From Leptolyngbya boryana PCC 6306 (GTDB lineage: Bacteria > Cyanobacteriota > Cyanobacteriia > Leptolyngbyales > Leptolyngbyaceae): DNA of 64,000 bases. This document shows positions 29,539 to 36,443 of this stretch, one piece after another. The stretch covers positions 824,577 through 888,576 of the forward strand of contig NZ_KB731324.1 in NCBI RefSeq assembly GCF_000353285.1, in the 5' to 3' direction. Position numbers and translations under genes: made by a program. Below the pieces are notes generated by a model. The model saw only the letters and a list, made by a program, of their open reading frames with translations, had not been told where the DNA came from and ran no database searches. Every line of letters starts with the position of its first letter. The stretch's first letter is position 1.

Positions 29539-32418
29539 TCAAGCTCCCTTCCGCCAGGCATTTGAGAATTCGGCATAAGACATCTGCTGAGCGCAGTATG
29601 ACAATAATTTGTGGCACTCATGCAGTTGTACTGTAGATTGCTTGAAAGATTGATTGAAAATTGAAAGATCTATGTCTGTAAACAACAAGCTTAATTGATA
29701 GACGACATGGCTTAACTGGTTTTCCAACATGACTTCTTTCAAATCTTCGACAACTCGTTTATGGTGAGTTGGAATCTTCTCGTTCAAAAGAATTTGCAAC
29801 AAGCAGTCGATCGCTCCAGGATGTCCAGGTTGGAGCGTTGCCAGTCGATAGGCAATTCGCCGTTGATTCGCCCAGTCTTTTGCTGTTAATAATCGTTGTT
29901 CTAATGTACTAATGAGGTGTTTTAGATCTTGCTGATTGGTTGTTTTATTTTGATGTTTTTGACTTGTTTTCTCAGACCTTCTCATTGGCTGAAGTACAGC
30001 ATTTGCAACACTGTTTTTTGGGTCAAGGATGATTAAGTTCTCTGCGGTTCGCAGTCGCAATGTGGCATTTTCGGTTGAGTGAATGATCTGCTTCAGGGTA
30101 GCGATCGCTTTCTCATGACCAGGATTGATTTTTCCCAGACTATAAGCGGCTCTCCGGCGAATATTGTCCTCCTGGGTTGATTCCAGAATCTCCTCCAGAG
30201 CAGTAAGCACAATCGGATGACTTGGCTCGATTCTGCCCAGGCTTTCGATTACTTGTAATTTCAGAGCTTCACTCTGTAGAGTGTCAATGAGTTGACGCAG
30301 GGCAGCGATCGCCATTGAATTACCTGGATCAAGCGTTTTACCCAGGGTGTAAGCTGCCTGCCAACGAGCAAAGGGATTTTCGGCAATCTGGACAAACTCC
30401 TCTAAAACCGAAGTTGCAAGCTGGCGATCGGTTCGCAGCAACGCGATTCTGGCTCCTTCACAGAGGGAAGCAGGAAATACCCCAAATCGCCATTGGAGAA
30501 GTTGAGCCAGGATTTTTGAGGCATGACCAGATTGGGGAAACTCTGCCAACCCTGCCGCCGCCAAGCAGTAAGCTCGATGGGAATAAAAACCGCCACAGCG
30601 ATCGTCAAAATTCATGAGGGCTGTGATCAACGCCTCTTTCTCAGCAACAGCAATATCCGTTCTCCCCAACCAGAGTAGAATCACCTCTCGCCAGGACGCA
30701 TGAAAGACTGGAAAATCGTGAGCCGGATCAAAGAAAAACTGCCAATCTGAAATGGCTTGTGCGGCGAAATATTCCTGGAACGTGGGGTGGTAAAAGGCGT
30801 AAATCTTCTCGCCTGTGGTCACTGAAATTCCAACCTGGTTAAGCCAACCCAGTTGTAATGCCAAAGTCATTAAGTCTAATGACCCTGCAAATGCAATTTG
30901 AGCGAAGGAATGGGACAGTCGAAAGCGCGTTTCCCTTTGCAACAGTGCCCGCAGCGCAACCTGCCCTAATGCCTCATTGAGTTGCTGCCGCTGGGCGATC
31001 GTAGTGGGAAAGCGATCCTGCTTCCATTCATAGAGTGTTTCGACAAATTGCCGATAGAGCAGGGATTTCGTTTGCGGTAATGCTCCTTGAGCTAGTGACC
31101 AGGAGCGGCAAAGCAAGGCTAATCGGAGAGGATTTTTGACCGCATCCCTGACTCGCTTTCGCTGAGGGTTGTTCAATTCTTGTTGCAGGCGATCGCCCAA
31201 CTCCAGATGATCCTGAAACCAGCGATCGATGAACTGACCCACCTGATCCCCATCAGTTCCACGTCCATAACTAAAACTGCGGTTGCAGTAAACTGTAAAC
31301 CCATCGAGGGCATTTTTACCACTGTCCCAAACATTCGAGCGGCAGGTCAGCATGATACGAGCATTGGCAATCCATCCTCGCAGATGACAGGCAAGGCTCG
31401 ACAGTGCGGTTGCCCCATCCATCGCCATCTCATCGATCGCATCCAGCAATAGCCACACTCGCCCCTGCTCAAACTGTTGGGCAAATGCTTCTTGAAGCTC
31501 TAGAGAAACACTAATTTTCCCAGTTGCCTGCTTCAGCCAGTCCTGTAAGAGGTAGCTCTCCAATGTCGCTCCCTGCAAATCTGCCAGGGAAATCCAGATA
31601 GGCAGTACCCCCTGCTCTAGCAGCCAGACGGCGATTTTTTGAAGTAGCGTCGTTTTACCTGCACCCGGTTCACCTACGATCGCGATTCGTTGTTTTTCGA
31701 GCGATCGCAGACGGTCAAAAAATTCCTCTAAAGAGAGGGTGTCTTCTGGCTCGTCTCCGTCCTCAACAGGTGAACCGACTGATGAGCGATCAGCTTTGCG
31801 ATGCCGCTGCTTGCGTTCGATCAAGCCTAGGGGAAGATAGAGTTCATCCAGGTTGAAGGTCATACCATCGCTGACCGTCAATGGATTAATCGTCAACCGT
31901 TCGTATTGCTGTAATTCCAGACTGTTACGGCAAAGTTGCCACCAGGAATCTTGCCTATCCGCTCCCGAATCTTCTGGTTCTACAGGTTCCTTGCCTGTCA
32001 CCTGCTTCGATTTCTGGGGGCGGCGTTTTTCCCATTCCTGCTCGAATTGACGCAGATTGGCTGGGCGATCGCTCCGCTTGTGCCAGAGGTTAAGGGTGAA
32101 GTGCCAAACTTCAGATCCACCCCTGTTGGGGCGATTGTCGTCTAGGATCTCTAGAAAATCCTCAAATCGCCGCAATGCCTCCTTGATCTGTTCGCCATTC
32201 AGCGGAGATTTCGCCAGGTTAGTCAAAGCCTCTAAGAACCGAACCTTTGTTCGCACCACTAACCGTTGCTCGGTCTGCCAGTGGGTCTGAATCTGCGATC
32301 GCAGCCCATCCAAAGCCACCTCATCACAGTCCACCTCGTCGTTTGCGTAGTCGAGCAGGGTTGTGAACAGGTGGAGCGATCGCTTTTTGGCTTCAGGTCC
32401 GTAACTGGGGCGTGCCAT
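29539..32418 (-). CDS. NACHT-domain STAND NTPase with HEAT-like repeats
   Basis: The 959-residue protein has an N-terminal helical domain of about 140 residues (YGPEAKKRSLHLFTTLLDYAND, the probable effector or adaptor part) and a linker. A NACHT NTPase follows: Walker A GEPGAGKTT near residue 247, Walker B VWLLLDAIDEM near 325, LTCRSN sensor near 357, and FYHPTFQEYFAA near 560. Helical pairs spaced by about 30-37 residues run from about 640 to 860 (ALRQLIDTLQSEALKLQVIESLGRIEP, ALEEILESTQEDNIRRRAAYSLGKI), as in HEAT-repeat sensors. Bacterial NACHT proteins of this design are often anti-phage defence ATPases. The gene is divergent from the tandem Y RNAs and rsr. No toxin domain is recognisable. 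Confidence 0.88.
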   Translation of the reverse strand: MARPSYGPEAKKRSLHLFTTLLDYANDEVDCDEVALDGLRSQIQTHWQTEQRLVVRTKVRFLEALTNLAKSPLNGEQIKEALRRFEDFLEILDDNRPNRGGSEVWHFTLNLWHKRSDRPANLRQFEQEWEKRRPQKSKQVTGKEPVEPEDSGADRQDSWWQLCRNSLELQQYERLTINPLTVSDGMTFNLDELYLPLGLIERKQRHRKADRSSVGSPVEDGDEPEDTLSLEEFFDRLRSLEKQRIAIVGEPGAGKTTLLQKIAVWLLEQGVLPIWISLADLQGATLESYLLQDWLKQATGKISVSLELQEAFAQQFEQGRVWLLLDAIDEMAMDGATALSSLACHLRGWIANARIMLTCRSNVWDSGKNALDGFTVYCNRSFSYGRGTDGDQVGQFIDRWFQDHLELGDRLQQELNNPQRKRVRDAVKNPLRLALLCRSWSLAQGALPQTKSLLYRQFVETLYEWKQDRFPTTIAQRQQLNEALGQVALRALLQRETRFRLSHSFAQIAFAGSLDLMTLALQLGWLNQVGISVTTGEKIYAFYHPTFQEYFAAQAISDWQFFFDPAHDFPVFHASWREVILLWLGRTDIAVAEKEALITALMNFDDRCGGFYSHRAYCLAAAGLAEFPQSGHASKILAQLLQWRFGVFPASLCEGARIALLRTDRQLATSVLEEFVQIAENPFARWQAAYTLGKTLDPGNSMAIAALRQLIDTLQSEALKLQVIESLGRIEPSHPIVLTALEEILESTQEDNIRRRAAYSLGKINPGHEKAIATLKQIIHSTENATLRLRTAENLIILDPKNSVANAVLQPMRRSEKTSQKHQNKTTNQQDLKHLISTLEQRLLTAKDWANQRRIAYRLATLQPGHPGAIDCLLQILLNEKIPTHHKRVVEDLKEVMLENQLSHVVYQLSLLFTDIDLSIFNQSFKQSTVQLHECHKLLSYCAQQMSYAEFSNAWRKGA

Positions 32419-32668
32419 TGTTAGGAGAATCGGAATTTGGAGACAACTTGAGAATATCTCACGGTTCTAACTCACATTTTCCCCCAGAAGCCAGGGGAAT
32501 TCCTTCGGTTCCACCATTCCCCTAACTTCAAGTCTGTTGTGGAGGAAGCCTTTCAGCCGTTTTTATGCCAATTCGCCTAGGGGAAGATGGACTGCCTATT
32601 CTGGATTCATCAAAGGGAAGGAGACGAGAGAAGGCTTCTCACCTCCTACCCCCCGACTTTCAACCCTG

Positions 32669-32790
32669 TGGCGGCTAGCTCAATCGTAGAGCGCCAACGA
32701 TTGCCCGAAAGGGACGCAGATTGAGGGTTATCGCTTTGGACGACTTCCCCCTTAATCGCCGGAGATGCGGGTGCAACCCCCGCGCCGCTA
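32669..32790 (+). ncRNA. Y-RNA-like gene 1 with tRNA-like module
   Basis: This is a 122-nt unit closed by a 7-bp acceptor-like stem (TGGCGGC 32669-32675 with GCCGCTA 32784-32790). T-A at positions 8-9 is followed by a D-arm (GCTC-AATCGTA-GAGC, 32678-32692). A T-arm abuts the acceptor strand (GCGGG-TGCAACC-CCCGC, 32767-32783). In place of an anticodon arm there is a 74-nt insert. It contains the hairpin CCC-GAAA-GGG and the element GAGGGTTATCGC, then the strand CCCTTAATC that pairs with GATTGAGGG. Bacterial Y RNAs of the YrlA type have exactly such tRNA mimicry plus a Ro-binding stem, and animal Y RNAs share CCGAAGG...GAGUUAUC. The Ro60 gene follows. ACCA is encoded at 32792-32795. Confidence 0.8.
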
Positions 32791-32800
32791 CACCAAACAC

Positions 32801-32922
32801 TGGCAGGTAGTTTAACAGTAGAACGCCTAAAACATCCTTGTTCATACCTTGCCCGAAAGGGACGACGAATGAGGGTTATCGCCTTCCAAGCGGGTGATAT
32901 GGGTGCAACTCCCATCCTGCCA
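32801..32922 (+). ncRNA. Y-RNA-like gene 2 with tRNA-like module
   Basis: The second 122-nt unit starts 10 bases after the first. Its acceptor stem is a perfect 7 bp (TGGCAGG 32801-32807 with CCTGCCA 32916-32922). T-A follows, then a D-arm (GTTT-AACAGTA-GAAC, 32810-32824) and a T-arm directly joined to the acceptor (ATGGG-TGCAACT-CCCAT, 32899-32915). The inserted part again has TTGCCCGAAAGGGACG and GAGGGTTATCGC. Stems differ in sequence from unit 1 but keep pairing, so compensatory changes support the structure. No CCA is encoded. It ends 39 bases before the Ro60 start codon. Confidence 0.8.
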
Positions 32923-32961
32923 ATTTCCAAACATTGCCCTGACGGGCTGAAGGAGGTTGTG

Positions 32962-34566
32962 ATGACTTACAAGTTTTTTGTCCAGAACAAAACGCAAACA
33001 CCGCAAAGCCAGCCGATTCCGGGTCGGGAAGCAGACATGATTCAGGGACGTTCCGGTGGTTGGATGTTCAAAGCCGACTTCTGGAGTGTGCTGCGTCGCT
33101 GCCTGTTGATTGGAACGGCTCAAGGAGCTTATTACGCAGGCAAGCAGGAGTTGACGGGTGAATTTGTCGAAGTCTTGAAACAGGCGATCGCTCTCAACCC
33201 CGATCGCGTTGCCTCAGAGATCCTGTATGCCAGCGATGGACGGGCAATCAATAACAGTGCGCCTCTGTTGGCACTGGTGTTGCTATCAATGGGTGAGACA
33301 GTTGAAGCAAAGCACGCTTTTCAATCGATCTTTCCCCAGGTGGTAAGAACGGGAAGCCACTTCTACGAATGGTTGAGCTACACCAAAGCAATGCGCGGGT
33401 TTGGAAAGATTGTCCGAGAAGCGGGTAAGTCCTGGTTATCAAACCCTGATGCAAAAGGGTTAGCATATCAACTGTTGAAATATCAGCAGCGCCAAGGCTT
33501 TTCTCACCGGGATGCGCTGCGGCTGTTTCACGTTAAACCGCCCACGGAAGACCACGACCAGCTATTTCAGTGGGTCATTCAAGGTTGGGAGAACCTACCG
33601 CAAGAAATTCCCTCGGATGCTCTGGCGCAAATCTGGTGGTACGAGTGGCTGAAGCGCAATCCAGAGAGAACTCAGGAGGCGATCGCCAAAGGTCGGTTAA
33701 CGCATGAAATGGCAGCCCCCGTGGGCAAAATGGACAAGCGGGCATGGCAACTCCTGTTCAACGATATGCCGATCGGAGCAATGCTACGAAATCTGGGATC
33801 TTTAACCGAACTGGATGTGTTGACGGCTGACAACCGCGACAACCTGAAGCGAGTGGCAAAAGTCCTCAACAGTGCGGAACATTTGCGAAAAGGACGTATT
33901 CACCCGATCGATGTCTTGAAAGCCCTCAAGACTTATCAATCCGGTGGACAGTTAGGACGCAGCCAGAAAACCTGGCAACCTGTTCCCCGCATTGTGGATA
34001 TTCTGGAGCAAGCTCTGGAACTTTCCTTTGAGGTGATGCAGCCAACGGGCAAGGTGTTTCTACATGCGATCGATGTTTCTGGTTCCATGTCTTACTACAG
34101 CGTGAGTTCGATCGGACTGACCTGCTGTGAGATTGCAACCACGATGGCACTGGCAACAGCAAAAGCTGAACCGCACTATGTCATTCGCGGATTTGCCACC
34201 GATTTCCGTGACCTGAAAATTACAGCACGGGATTCGTTTAGCGATGCGATCGCCAAAGCGAGCAACCAAAACTTTGGTGGAACGGATGCGGCAGTCGCGT
34301 ATGAGTGGGCAATCAAACACAAGTTCAAGGCAGACGTGTTCTGCTTCTGGACGGACTGTGAAAGCTGGGCAGGACGCAAGCATCCGAGCCAGGCATTAGC
34401 CGAGTATCGCCGTAAGGTGAATCCTGGGGCAAAAGCTGTTTACGTCACCCTGGCTCCCTACAATATCTCGCTGGTTGATCCAAAAGATTCAATGTCGTGG
34501 GATATTGCCGGATTTGATCCAGGAACACCTCGATTAATTCAAATGATTGCAGCAGGAGAGCTTTGA
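32962..34566 (+). CDS. rsr: Ro60/Rsr-type TROVE RNA-binding protein
   Basis: The 534-residue protein starts at ATG 32962, fixed by a perfect AGGAGG five bases upstream; any longer reading runs into the Y RNA gene. The TROVE HEAT-like ring occupies about 10-340 (FKADFWSVLRRCLLIGTAQGAYYAGKQEL, SHFYEWLSYTKAMRGFGKIVREA, VLNSAEHLRKGRIHPIDVLKALKTYQSG). A von Willebrand A domain follows with the MIDAS motif DVSGSM near residue 371 and GGTDAAVAYEWA. Ro60 rings bind Y RNA on the outside and misfolded RNA ends in the central hole. Bacterial Rsr works with PNPase in RNA decay or rRNA maturation under stress. The two Y RNA genes directly upstream complete the set. Confidence 0.95.
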   Translation: MTYKFFVQNKTQTPQSQPIPGREADMIQGRSGGWMFKADFWSVLRRCLLIGTAQGAYYAGKQELTGEFVEVLKQAIALNPDRVASEILYASDGRAINNSAPLLALVLLSMGETVEAKHAFQSIFPQVVRTGSHFYEWLSYTKAMRGFGKIVREAGKSWLSNPDAKGLAYQLLKYQQRQGFSHRDALRLFHVKPPTEDHDQLFQWVIQGWENLPQEIPSDALAQIWWYEWLKRNPERTQEAIAKGRLTHEMAAPVGKMDKRAWQLLFNDMPIGAMLRNLGSLTELDVLTADNRDNLKRVAKVLNSAEHLRKGRIHPIDVLKALKTYQSGGQLGRSQKTWQPVPRIVDILEQALELSFEVMQPTGKVFLHAIDVSGSMSYYSVSSIGLTCCEIATTMALATAKAEPHYVIRGFATDFRDLKITARDSFSDAIAKASNQNFGGTDAAVAYEWAIKHKFKADVFCFWTDCESWAGRKHPSQALAEYRRKVNPGAKAVYVTLAPYNISLVDPKDSMSWDIAGFDPGTPRLIQMIAAGEL

Positions 34567-34577
34567 CTTGCTTAAAG

Positions 34578-34611
34578 TTGGGAGTATTTTTTCAAGTGAA
34601 AGTACTCCCAA
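34578..34611 (+). terminator. Terminator after rsr
   Basis: The inverted repeat TTGGGAGTA / TACTCCCAA (9 bp, loop of 16) starts 12 bases after the rsr stop and is followed by TTTA. It is a plausible rho-independent terminator for the Y RNA-rsr unit. The T-run is short. Confidence 0.6.
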
Positions 34612-34643
34612 TTTATGGTTCAAAATGATGAGAAATAGGGAAG

Positions 34644-35429
34644 CTAAGCAGATGCTAGATTTTTAGTAATCTGCTCGAAAATTGACTCAAACTTATGCTT
34701 CGCGTTATCAAACTCTAGCACCTGCCAATCCGGGACAGAATCGCAATCCAGTTGTTTCGCATTCAGGTAAACCGGGTAGCGAACTTCAATTTGTAACGCT
34801 TCAACTTGCGGCATCTGACCGTAATGCCGTGTGATATGTCCACCACTAAACGCCTTATTGCGAACAACCTGATACCTCTGTGAGCAAAAAGCAGTGTCAA
34901 CGACAGAAATGAAGTGTTCAGAACAGGTTGCCCCATTTCCGTTCCCCAAACAGACTTCATCCTCAATTAATCCAAGGAAACTGTGTAAATCCAGCAAATA
35001 TACCTTGCCAAATTGCTCAATCTGTTCGTTCAGCAAAGTTTGAAGCTGTTGGTGATAGGGGCGATAGTATTGCTCCACTCGCTGTTCAACCTCTTCTCTT
35101 GAAGGCGGAGTTCGATAAATTGCGGTGTTGAACGCAGTCTTTTCAGCAACGACCGATTGCCAAAAGCTACCAAAGAGCGGTTCGTGGAGCGATCGATTGA
35201 GGTCAACTACGTAACGGCTATAGACAGCTTGCAGGACAGTAATGCCTAAACGGGGCAGAAAATCATAGAGTTTGTCGAGATGCCAATCTTGATTGGGTAA
35301 ATAGTGCTGGTGAGAAGCTTCTAATGTGTTAGTAATCTCCTTCGGTATGAGCAATCCACTGTGAGGCAGACTGGCGATAACCGGAATGGTGTGAGCAGTA
35401 GGTAAGTGCAGGAGGAAAGGGTCTGGCAT
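34644..35429 (-). CDS. N-formylglutamate amidohydrolase-family protein
   Basis: The protein of about 261 residues starts at ATG 35429 (MPDPFLLHLP); a start at 35498 would add 23 odd residues. Family motifs are visible: VIASLPHSGLLIP near residue 14, VVDLNRSLHEPLFG, YLLDLHSFLGL near 143, and FSGGHITRHYGQMPQVEALQIEVR near 190. The enzyme hydrolyses formylglutamate-like amides in histidine and related breakdown. Homologues in cyanobacteria without the Hut pathway have unproven substrates. It lies upstream of nothing obvious and just downstream of the THI5-like gene on the same strand. Confidence 0.82.
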   Translation of the reverse strand: MPDPFLLHLPTAHTIPVIASLPHSGLLIPKEITNTLEASHQHYLPNQDWHLDKLYDFLPRLGITVLQAVYSRYVVDLNRSLHEPLFGSFWQSVVAEKTAFNTAIYRTPPSREEVEQRVEQYYRPYHQQLQTLLNEQIEQFGKVYLLDLHSFLGLIEDEVCLGNGNGATCSEHFISVVDTAFCSQRYQVVRNKAFSGGHITRHYGQMPQVEALQIEVRYPVYLNAKQLDCDSVPDWQVLEFDNAKHKFESIFEQITKNLASA

Positions 35430-35546
35430 TGGTGGCTTAGTCAGTAGATAAATTGCTCGATCCTTAAATATGGGAAAACAGAGGGAGACCCAGAGCATTC
35501 CTCCGTATTTGCCACTATCAAGGTTGGAAGCACGCCTCGATGCCGC

Positions 35547-36443
35547 TTAAAGGGCGAGTGAGTTAGTCCAATAGGCGGTGGCAGATAAGCGATCGCTAAT
35601 CTGTCCGGTGTTGTGCATCCAGGTCTGTAGTTGGTCGTAGTAGTCAGTGGTCATTGTAAAGTCGTAAGTGAAACAGGGAACGGTTGCCTGATAGATGGCT
35701 TGCCCGATCGCATCGTCAGCATAGGCTCCAGTGTGCTGGTTATAGATTGCCTGTGCAGCTTCGGGTTGCTGATGAATGAAGTCAATCCCGCGTCGGAATA
35801 CCTTCAGGAAAGCCTGAAGTTCTTGCCGTCGCTGTTGCAGTAACTCTGGAGTCGTGATGAAAATGAGTTGACAGAAATCTGGAATGCCCCAATCCTTGAG
35901 GGCAAAAAACTGAGCATCGTAGCCCCGCAGCCGAGCTTCAATGACTTCAAAATTGTAGAAAACTAGCGTTGCACAGTCTGCTTTGTTTTCAACGAGTGCG
36001 TTCGTGTGGAAAAAGCCATTATCGACAGAGGTAATGGCATCGTCGGTAAACTGACCGCCATCCGCCTCGATCATCGTTTGAGCGATCGCCTTTCCTAAAG
36101 CCGAGGGTGCGCCGGGGTATTGCAGTCGCTTACCCAGCATATCTTTAGGGCGCTCAATCCCTTGCCCTGCAAAGTACATAACCCCACCATTGGTATGTAA
36201 AAACCGTGCCCAACCAATGACCGGATGACCATTACTGCGGTCTTCAACCAGATGTACTGGCTCCGTAATGGCAATATCGAGCGTTCCGTCCTGGATCTGG
36301 GCGATCGCATCAATGTGTTCAGATGGTTCAACCAGTTCCAAATCGATATTTACATCTGCAAACCATCCCTGCTTCAGTCCCACCAGCAGAGGCACATGAT
36401 CTGGATTCAAAAACCATTCCAATCCCAAGCGTAACTTAGCCAT
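35547..36443 (-). CDS. NMT1/THI5-like periplasmic-binding-fold protein without signal peptide
   Basis: The 298-residue protein has the type 2 binding-protein fold of the NMT1/THI5 family: LRLGLEWFLNPDHVPLLVGLKQGWFADVNIDLELVEP at the start, DGTLDIAITEPVHLVEDR and NALVENKADCATLVFYNFEVIEARLRG. It begins at MAKLRLG with no signal peptide or lipobox, and no permease or ATPase gene adjoins it. It could therefore be a cytoplasmic enzyme or sensor rather than a transport component. The cysteine-rich CCCFC motif of yeast Thi5 (pyrimidine synthase) is not present. Ligand unknown; thiamin-precursor binding is typical of relatives. Confidence 0.78.
   Translation of the reverse strand: MAKLRLGLEWFLNPDHVPLLVGLKQGWFADVNIDLELVEPSEHIDAIAQIQDGTLDIAITEPVHLVEDRSNGHPVIGWARFLHTNGGVMYFAGQGIERPKDMLGKRLQYPGAPSALGKAIAQTMIEADGGQFTDDAITSVDNGFFHTNALVENKADCATLVFYNFEVIEARLRGYDAQFFALKDWGIPDFCQLIFITTPELLQQRRQELQAFLKVFRRGIDFIHQQPEAAQAIYNQHTGAYADDAIGQAIYQATVPCFTYDFTMTTDYYDQLQTWMHNTGQISDRLSATAYWTNSLAL

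Follow-up and report, generated by a model that had tools for sequence, protein, structure and literature searches.

The window, a stretch of 64,000 nucleotides from Leptolyngbya boryana PCC 6306, contains an rsr gene and, about 40 nt 5' of it, two tandem tRNA-ordered units (Table 1). The rsr product matches the Pfam families vWA_Ro60 (134.6 bits) and TROVE (59.8 bits) and the PDB entries 2nvo (Rsr, E 4e-75) and 1yvp (Ro60, E 2.2e-73). A STAND/NACHT gene lies divergent to the array, encoding a kind of protein often linked with defence, and an amidohydrolase-like gene is convergent with rsr.

Table 1. Features of the array, the rsr leader and the flanking genes, with positions in the window
Feature	Position	Strand	Basis
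Gene for 959-aa STAND/NACHT protein with EAD4, HEAT repeats and NCC-H	29539-32418	-	
Unit 1, candidate tRNA-order Y RNA of type A	32668..32795	+	sequence, model R2, covariation in A2
Unit 1 acceptor, 8 bp	32668-32675/32784-32791	+	sequence
Unit 1 U8A9	32676-32677	+	sequence
Unit 1 D arm	32678-32692	+	sequence
Unit 1 lower Ro hairpin	32701-32717	+	sequence
Unit 1 upper Ro stem, partner downstream	GATTGAGGG 32719-32727 / CCCTTAATC 32749-32757	+	
Unit 1 T arm	32767-32783	+	sequence
Unit 1 encoded ACCA	32792-32795	+	sequence
Unit 2, candidate tRNA-order Y RNA of type B	32801..32923	+	sequence, model R1, covariation in A1
Unit 2 acceptor, 7 bp	32801-32807/32916-32922	+	sequence
Unit 2 D arm	32810-32824	+	
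Unit 2 anticodon-position stem, 3 bp	32826-32828/32892-32894	+	
Unit 2 upper Ro stem, GAGGG partner upstream	32834-32843/32867-32876	+	
Unit 2 lower Ro helix (A32862 bulged)	32849-32854/32859-32865	+	
Unit 2 tetraloop	32855-32858	+	
Unit 2 T arm	32899-32915	+	
Unit 2 discriminator-position A	32923	+	
Ro-site-like leader hairpin UUG-CCC-UGAC-GGG-C-UGA	32934..32950	+	sequence, leader comparison
Shine-Dalgarno-like AGGAGG	32951-32956		
rsr, Ro60/Rsr-like TROVE + vWA protein, 534 aa	32962..34566	+	Pfam, PDB matches
N-formylglutamate amidohydrolase-like gene	34644-35498	-	

Measured over 7-bp acceptors, unit 1 spans 32669-32790 and unit 2 32801-32922, and direct reading of the sequence thus confirms the initial annotation, which had given 122 nt to each unit and 10 nt to the gap. 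It had also placed acceptor, D and T arms in tRNA order, with T8-A9 and an insert at the anticodon arm; the sequence bears this out, each unit running 5' to 3' from an open acceptor strand through U8-A9, the D arm, the insert of about 74 nt and the T arm to the other acceptor strand. The insert contains the hairpin UUG-CCC-GAAA-GGG-A-CG and the motif GAGGGUUAUCG, and CCCGAAAGGG and GAGGGTTATCGC can be read directly in each unit. The anticodon position of both is predicted to hold a Y-RNA-type Ro-binding hairpin in place of the anticodon arm. The stems had been said to differ between the units yet to remain paired, and they do: GAGGG pairs downstream in unit 1 and upstream in unit 2, giving two different sub-architectures. 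The ACCA reported after unit 1 is indeed encoded, and its place can be refined, as it comes after an eighth acceptor pair (32668:32791); unit 2 has neither an encoded CCA nor an eighth pair. Unit 1 has a C facing the first U of UUG, and this pair is therefore not formed. Model R2 scores unit 1 with 121.9 bits at 32668-32794 and model R1 scores unit 2 with 124.3 bits at 32800-32926, each unit being itself in the respective training set. The exact core pattern occurs twice in the genome, both times in these units.

The window by itself gave little. Folding of single sequences yielded z values of -1.54 and -2.56 for the two units, which is weak by itself, and was dropped as proof of structure. 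At minimum energy unit 1 folds without its D arm; unit 2 does form this arm, but its UAUCGCCU pairs with GGGUGAUA in place of the short anticodon-position stem. ARAGORN found no tRNA in the window, and Rfam models matched positions 30000-36000 at E<=10 only at chance level, with neither a tRNA nor a YrlA match. The best match of the YrlA model (RF02553) in the whole genome reaches 23.1 bits, against a gathering cut-off of 69, and lies away from the units. A scan for sigma70-like promoters and terminators found none.

For comparison we took relatives from 118 locus records (L003-L120), some regions being present twice, using at most the 1500 nt that precede rsr. Our script kept only stretches with GGTTATC in which no fewer than 6 of the 7 acceptor pairs and 4 of the 5 T-stem pairs form, and it scored the D stem, U8, residue 9, U54, residues 56-57 and A58. 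From 338 seeds, 44 fell below the score cut, and dropping 30 identical units from the remaining 294 left 264 non-identical but related units. These were assigned to 105 records, an identical unit being counted with the earlier one; two units were found in 46 records, three in 33, four in 13, one in 11 and five in 2. In type B (191/264), GAAUGAGGGU pairs with AUCCUUGUUC upstream of the tetraloop hairpin; in type A (65/264), GAUYGAGGG pairs with CCCUURAUC downstream; the type of 8 units is unclear. Type A stands most upstream in 54 of the 61 records with both types and type B adjoins rsr in 98 of 105, an order that the window follows with unit 1 of type A and unit 2 of type B. An eighth acceptor pair is possible in 233/264 units and is G:C in 200, and CCA is encoded one base after the acceptor in 119/264 (87 after 8 bp, 32 after 7 bp). 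A subtype of units has an extra hairpin between the D arm and the Ro hairpin (e.g., L066, L018, L025, L106, L120). We rejected this hairpin as a real anticodon arm, its loop varying in length and letters among the rows listed; it is possibly the remnant of one. Several units carry a palindrome-like repeat (TACCCTTCGGG...GTCTAC type) at the same place within the T loop (upstream of rsr at -542 in L018, -242 in L043, -243 in L049, -498 in L065, and -422 and -84 in L106), the 21-nt core of which occurs in 3 of 221 loci only (L018, L022, L106).

We next consider covariation. Alignment A1 (plain MAFFT) holds 42 type-B units, namely 40 of 52 de-replicated ones and two moved from the type-A list (L091, L079); 12 were left out by eye, one of them type-A-like (L080) and 11 divergent in length or letters. 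Alignment A2 holds 31 of 37 type-A units, two having been moved to A1 and four left out. Two-sided changes were found in 25 of 36 pairs of type B and in 17 of 32 pairs of type A, with 94.3% and 94.4% of cells paired, percentages that may be raised because rows were left out by eye. None of 500 shuffles reached the covariation score of either type, and sliding the partners of type B by 1-3 columns leaves 44-51% of cells paired. The weakest parts of type B are one upper-stem position (25/42 unpaired) and pair 3 of the short stem at the anticodon position; those of type A are two UUG pairs (10/31 and 7/31 unpaired), the pair of the first U failing in 10 of the 31 units, and one pair at an upper-stem end (15/31 unpaired). 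Loss of pairing in relatives had been named beforehand as a possible refutation of the units, and in both alignments the helices instead covary.

The tRNA-like core extends to tertiary contacts. Pairing of the acceptor, D and T stems and conservation of U8, U54 and A58 are inflated because they were partly used to select units; residues 15, 48 and 55 played no part in selection. The Levitt pair 15-48 is G:C in 141, A:U in 113 and otherwise in 10 of the 264 units (Fisher p 1.5e-67 for the 2x2 part). The 18-55 pair, counted in 256 units after leaving out 8 with other D-loop ends, is G:U in 188, A:G in 40 and C:G in 4; among the 24 others, 15 are G:A, all of type A. The window units have lost the elbow letters GG/TTC and show C18 with G55 and A18 with G55. 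In this comparison of sequences, the tRNA tertiary pairs thus covary, as do the helices.

With tRNA (RF00005) the units have in common the cloverleaf body, U8, A14, covarying 15-48 and 18-55 and, in part, NCCA, but the anticodon arm with its 7-nt loop is replaced by the Ro hairpin, and an eighth acceptor pair is possible. Acceptors of 8 bp with T stems of 5 bp are known from tRNA-Sec and tRNA-His; the units share this combination but are without an anticodon arm and linked to rsr. Nine units from five cyanobacterial loci (L018, L091, L104, L120, L129) pass the RF00005 gathering cut-off of 29 bits and a tenth (L129) scores 28.7 bits, whereas the window units are absent at E<=10; in three alignments inspected, 45-72 nt are inserted in or at the anticodon loop. 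The units might accordingly be read as tRNA genes whose anticodon arm contains an intron or insertion and whose spliced product still serves in translation. ARAGORN, when allowed introns of up to 150 nt, does call many of them intron-bearing tRNAs, in addition to the nine above the RF00005 cut-off. It calls none for the window units (L003), however, and among the calls listed the rsr-adjacent anticodons are inconsistent between species (Gly tcc, Arg acg, stop tta, Val gac, Pro agg, Asp atc). Since the insert itself is conserved and covaries and the co-occurrence with rsr is tight, we consider spliced tRNAs exceedingly improbable. The insert is too short for a group I intron, which we ruled out by size and by the absence of a consistent anticodon. 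In the order, model R1, built from type-B units only, also gives tRNA-sized matches (about 76-78 nt) that reach about 58 bits, and all 42 genomes have some R1 match at E<=0.01.

We investigated how tightly the units are linked to rsr. Among the 42 genomes of the order, units above 100 bits occur in 8, all with an Rsr match (partial in G020), and a genome with an 89-residue Rsr remnant with a stop (G023) has no units. At E<=1e-11, R1 finds matches in 31 of the 386 phylum genomes scanned, all within the 38 with an Rsr match, and 62 of 62 of these matches lie on the contig and strand of rsr, 31-1587 nt upstream. The remaining seven Rsr-match genomes comprise two with fragments, four with distant Rsr (34-40% identity) and one (G118) with a type-A unit instead. 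R1 thus matches in 31 of 32 genomes with full-length close Rsr versus 0 of 354 others (p 6e-45, relatedness ignored). These whole-genome scans used filters able to lose weak matches, and absence of units elsewhere holds at this sensitivity only, because the 1e-11 cut-off missed a divergent unpermuted unit (52.4 bits) beside the distant rsr of one of the 354 (G085, locus L135). The units are more than chance because their helices covary, their core pattern is unique to them in their own genome and they are linked to rsr. From these comparisons we conclude that the two units are real tRNA-shaped Y-RNA-like elements, and the comparative data support what the initial annotation had seen as tandem genes of this kind 5' of rsr.

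The Ro site of animal Y RNAs is composed of a lower helix, one bulged base, CGR/UUG, an upper stem and UUAUC. All these parts are present in the units, the helices covarying in part, and canonical Y RNAs and units have in common the bulged base before CGR paired to UUG, the upper stem and a GGGUUAUC-type motif. The Ro stem of canonical Y RNAs is terminal and a tRNA body was not noticed in them, whereas that of the units is internal and closed by a tetraloop. Two of the loci compared (L136, L137) contain canonical-looking Y RNAs with terminal Ro stems, judged by eye.

The consensus of the bacterial Y RNA YrlA (RF02553) runs in the order Ro stem, T arm, closed acceptor hairpin, UA, D arm, Ro stem, the acceptor being closed by 3 nt. 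The window units instead run acceptor, D arm, Ro hairpin, T arm, acceptor, with open acceptor ends; units of this type carry CCA in part and have a Ro site closed by a tetraloop. Common to both are the place beside rsr, the D and T arms of the tRNA core, a Ro-binding site and similar letters once rotated. The units had been likened to YrlA as tRNA mimics: the tRNA shape stands, but the YrlA type does not, the tRNA order being kept. A solved bacterial Y RNA is reported to superpose on tRNAs with circular permutation (PMC11472068). We rotated 40 random units of 117-128 nt and the two window units at the Ro tetraloop. The rotated form scored better for 40/40 units against the YrlA of Gordonia phage Sixama and for 39, 38, 38, 35, 35 and 26 of 40 against six others; the test fails against Streptomyces phage Phredrick (15/40). 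Unit 1 fits better when rotated against 7 of 8 YrlA-type RNAs and unit 2 against 6 of 8 (one tie, one worse), and mean scores are high for cuts near the tetraloop and lower for cuts 50 nt off. Because the match extends to the letters of the Ro site and to those that precede the T arm, we read the likeness as homology, and by their sequences units and YrlA look like circular permutants of each other. Convergence on the tRNA arms retains some small probability as the source of the likeness.

A tandem array raises the question of phase. The array could consist of ordinary YrlA whose phase has been misread, with each functional RNA starting at a Ro site, continuing through the T arm of that unit and the intervening spacer, and ending with the D arm of the following unit. 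In 117 of 159 cases neighboring acceptors could form 6 or more of 7 pairs between them, and because this is so frequent, pairing alone leaves the phase unfixed; the window gap is only 10 nt, and in L091 the YrlA model spans two neighboring units with 40.5 bits (below its cut-off of 69), as expected from a phase shift in a tandem array. The gaps, however, range from 8 to 686 nt with a median of 61 (<=15 nt in 17/159), long and variable compared with the 3 nt of RF02553, and CCA follows the acceptor in the 119 units counted above. It is because of these gap lengths and the encoded CCA that we favor the phase with acceptor ends. In addition, RF02553 matches no stretch of the window array, and our script saw no YrlA-order arrangement in 14 of 15 viral loci with unpermuted units. 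YrlA in the wrong phase is thus very unlikely, and we continue with units that begin and end at the acceptor.

Both orders of arms occur in viruses, of which we took the best 80 of 409 rsr loci. Unpermuted units were found in 15 of the 80 (13 by script; L160 and L192 by R1 and eye), YrlA-order units in 18 (by script) and neither form in 48; L201 has both forms by script, its YrlA-order call being by script only. The cyanobacterial core motif has 0 matches in the viral contigs, so the viral units stem from R1 and the script, and L157 and L158 gave one identical unit. NCCA follows a 7-bp acceptor in a unit of each of L148, L156, L157/L158, L164 and L186. The L148 unit has short matches in 10 records of sequenced phages, seven of them under annotated tRNAs and three, all from Mycobacterium phages, without a feature at the match. 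At 2600-2790 of L148 the unit is flanked by letters resembling canonical Y RNA ends (CCTTGCCC before, GTGGGCCGAAG after). In Gordonia phage Sixama (L132, 3489-3910) a tmRNA match of 88.1 bits lies between rsr, tRNAs and a YrlA-type match. L135, from a distant member of the phylum, has a YrlA-type match of 38.4 bits, under the cut-off, and the unpermuted unit mentioned above, whose minimum-energy fold is near the expected cloverleaf and has a T arm with a 3-nt loop (z -1.52); one genome (L135) and one viral contig (L201) thus carry both forms. The distant rsr genes of L135 and L138 lie in or beside dense tRNA arrays (12 and 17 tRNAs by ARAGORN), with Y RNA candidates among the arrayed tRNAs. 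The 8 cyanobacterial sequences sampled group together (100/100) in a tree of 63 Rsr proteins, the deep part of which is weakly supported. On this tree the unpermuted state needs at least 9 changes, 1 of them forced by well-supported branches, and the permuted state 14, 4 of them forced. tmRNA is likewise known permuted and unpermuted; permuted tmRNA (RF04321) resembles the Y RNA here in having both forms but has no known relation to Rsr.

In the literature that we searched, a selection that the main Y RNA studies lay outside, tRNA-order Y RNAs are not described. Chen reportedly noted in 2014 that more than 250 species have tRNA-like Y RNAs near rsr, which might include some of these.

A further Ro-site-like element lies between unit 2 and the start codon of rsr, where the Shine-Dalgarno-like sequence directly follows the leader hairpin on its 3' side. 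A loose rule finds the motif in 84/103 distinct 60-nt leaders, a stricter rule in 66/85 distinct 35-nt leaders, compared with a mean of 0.5 and a maximum of 2 in 200 shuffles and with 0/104 control stretches. This amounts to conservation and not to independent recurrence, because the leaders are related. The stem letters co-vary in part (CCC/GGG and CCU/AGG, and also CCU/GGG), and the Pseudanabaena-type leaders inspected are without UUG. Judged from these leaders, rsr may control itself: excess Rsr may bind the look-alike hairpin and so block the ribosome-binding site.

Taken together, the architecture, the covariation of helices and tertiary pairs, the co-occurrence and synteny with rsr and the likeness to YrlA after rotation indicate that each unit is very probably a Y RNA in non-permuted tRNA layout for the Rsr encoded downstream. 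Such an RNA would keep the tRNA body, with acceptor, D arm, T arm and L-shaped core, and carry a Ro60-binding hairpin for the anticodon arm. The array transcript would be cut into single Y RNAs by tRNA end-processing enzymes, with RNase P acting at the 5' end and an encoded or added CCA at the 3' end; the CCA encoded in 119/264 units is suggestive only of this maturation. Rsr is predicted to bind the hairpin and, because this hairpin holds the anticodon position, the Rsr ring would come to sit at the place of a tRNA anticodon, leaving the tRNA body as a possible handle for tRNA-binding factors.

The RNA ligase RtcB is present in 38/38 Rsr-match genomes versus 90/348 others (p 8.7e-21, relatedness ignored). 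Transcripts of a cyanobacterial TROVE gene rise dramatically after erythromycin (PMC6424891), and one coculture gave log2 changes of +4.5 for TROVE and +3.5 for RtcB (PMC11423583). For the rsr-yrlBA-rtcBA genes of Salmonella a stress-induced role in RNA repair or decay is discussed (PMC7790460). The co-occurrence of RtcB and the published induction fit such a role, and the Y RNAs would probably serve, with RtcB, to repair or degrade damaged tRNAs. The tRNA bodies might instead serve as decoys, the RNAs binding Rsr yet sequestering anticodon nucleases or tRNA-binding factors rather than acting as an exonuclease tether. That the bodies are varied, with class-II-like D arms in 13/264 units, and that RtcB co-occurs with rsr would both agree with decoys, and a competitive-inhibitor role has been raised for YrlA (PMC7790460); but such nucleases target the anticodon loop, which the units lack, and we judge decoys rather unlikely.

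Returning to Y RNAs that would act with Rsr in repair or decay, we put forward only tentatively the joint reading, possible at best in all its parts, that the units form an unpermuted counterpart to YrlA, that RNase P and the addition of CCA mature them, leaving a free tRNA 3' end with Rsr at the place of the anticodon arm, that phase shifts interconvert the tRNA-order and YrlA forms, and that Rsr limits itself via a mimic of its Ro site. tRNA-like Y RNAs would thereby gain a form with free tRNA ends, and such ends could give tRNA maturation enzymes and tRNA-binding factors access to a partner RNA of Ro60. Re-phasing of a tandem array would offer a concrete route between tRNA and YrlA, and a re-ordered bacterial Y RNA suggests how tRNAs may relate to Y RNAs. 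The purpose of the tRNA-like part of bacterial Y RNAs becomes testable in a cyanobacterium, the laboratory strain Picosynechococcus sp. PCC 7002. On its plasmid pAQ7 (L129, 2041-2447), R1 and R2 give three tandem matches beside rsr, two of them full-length and one shorter.
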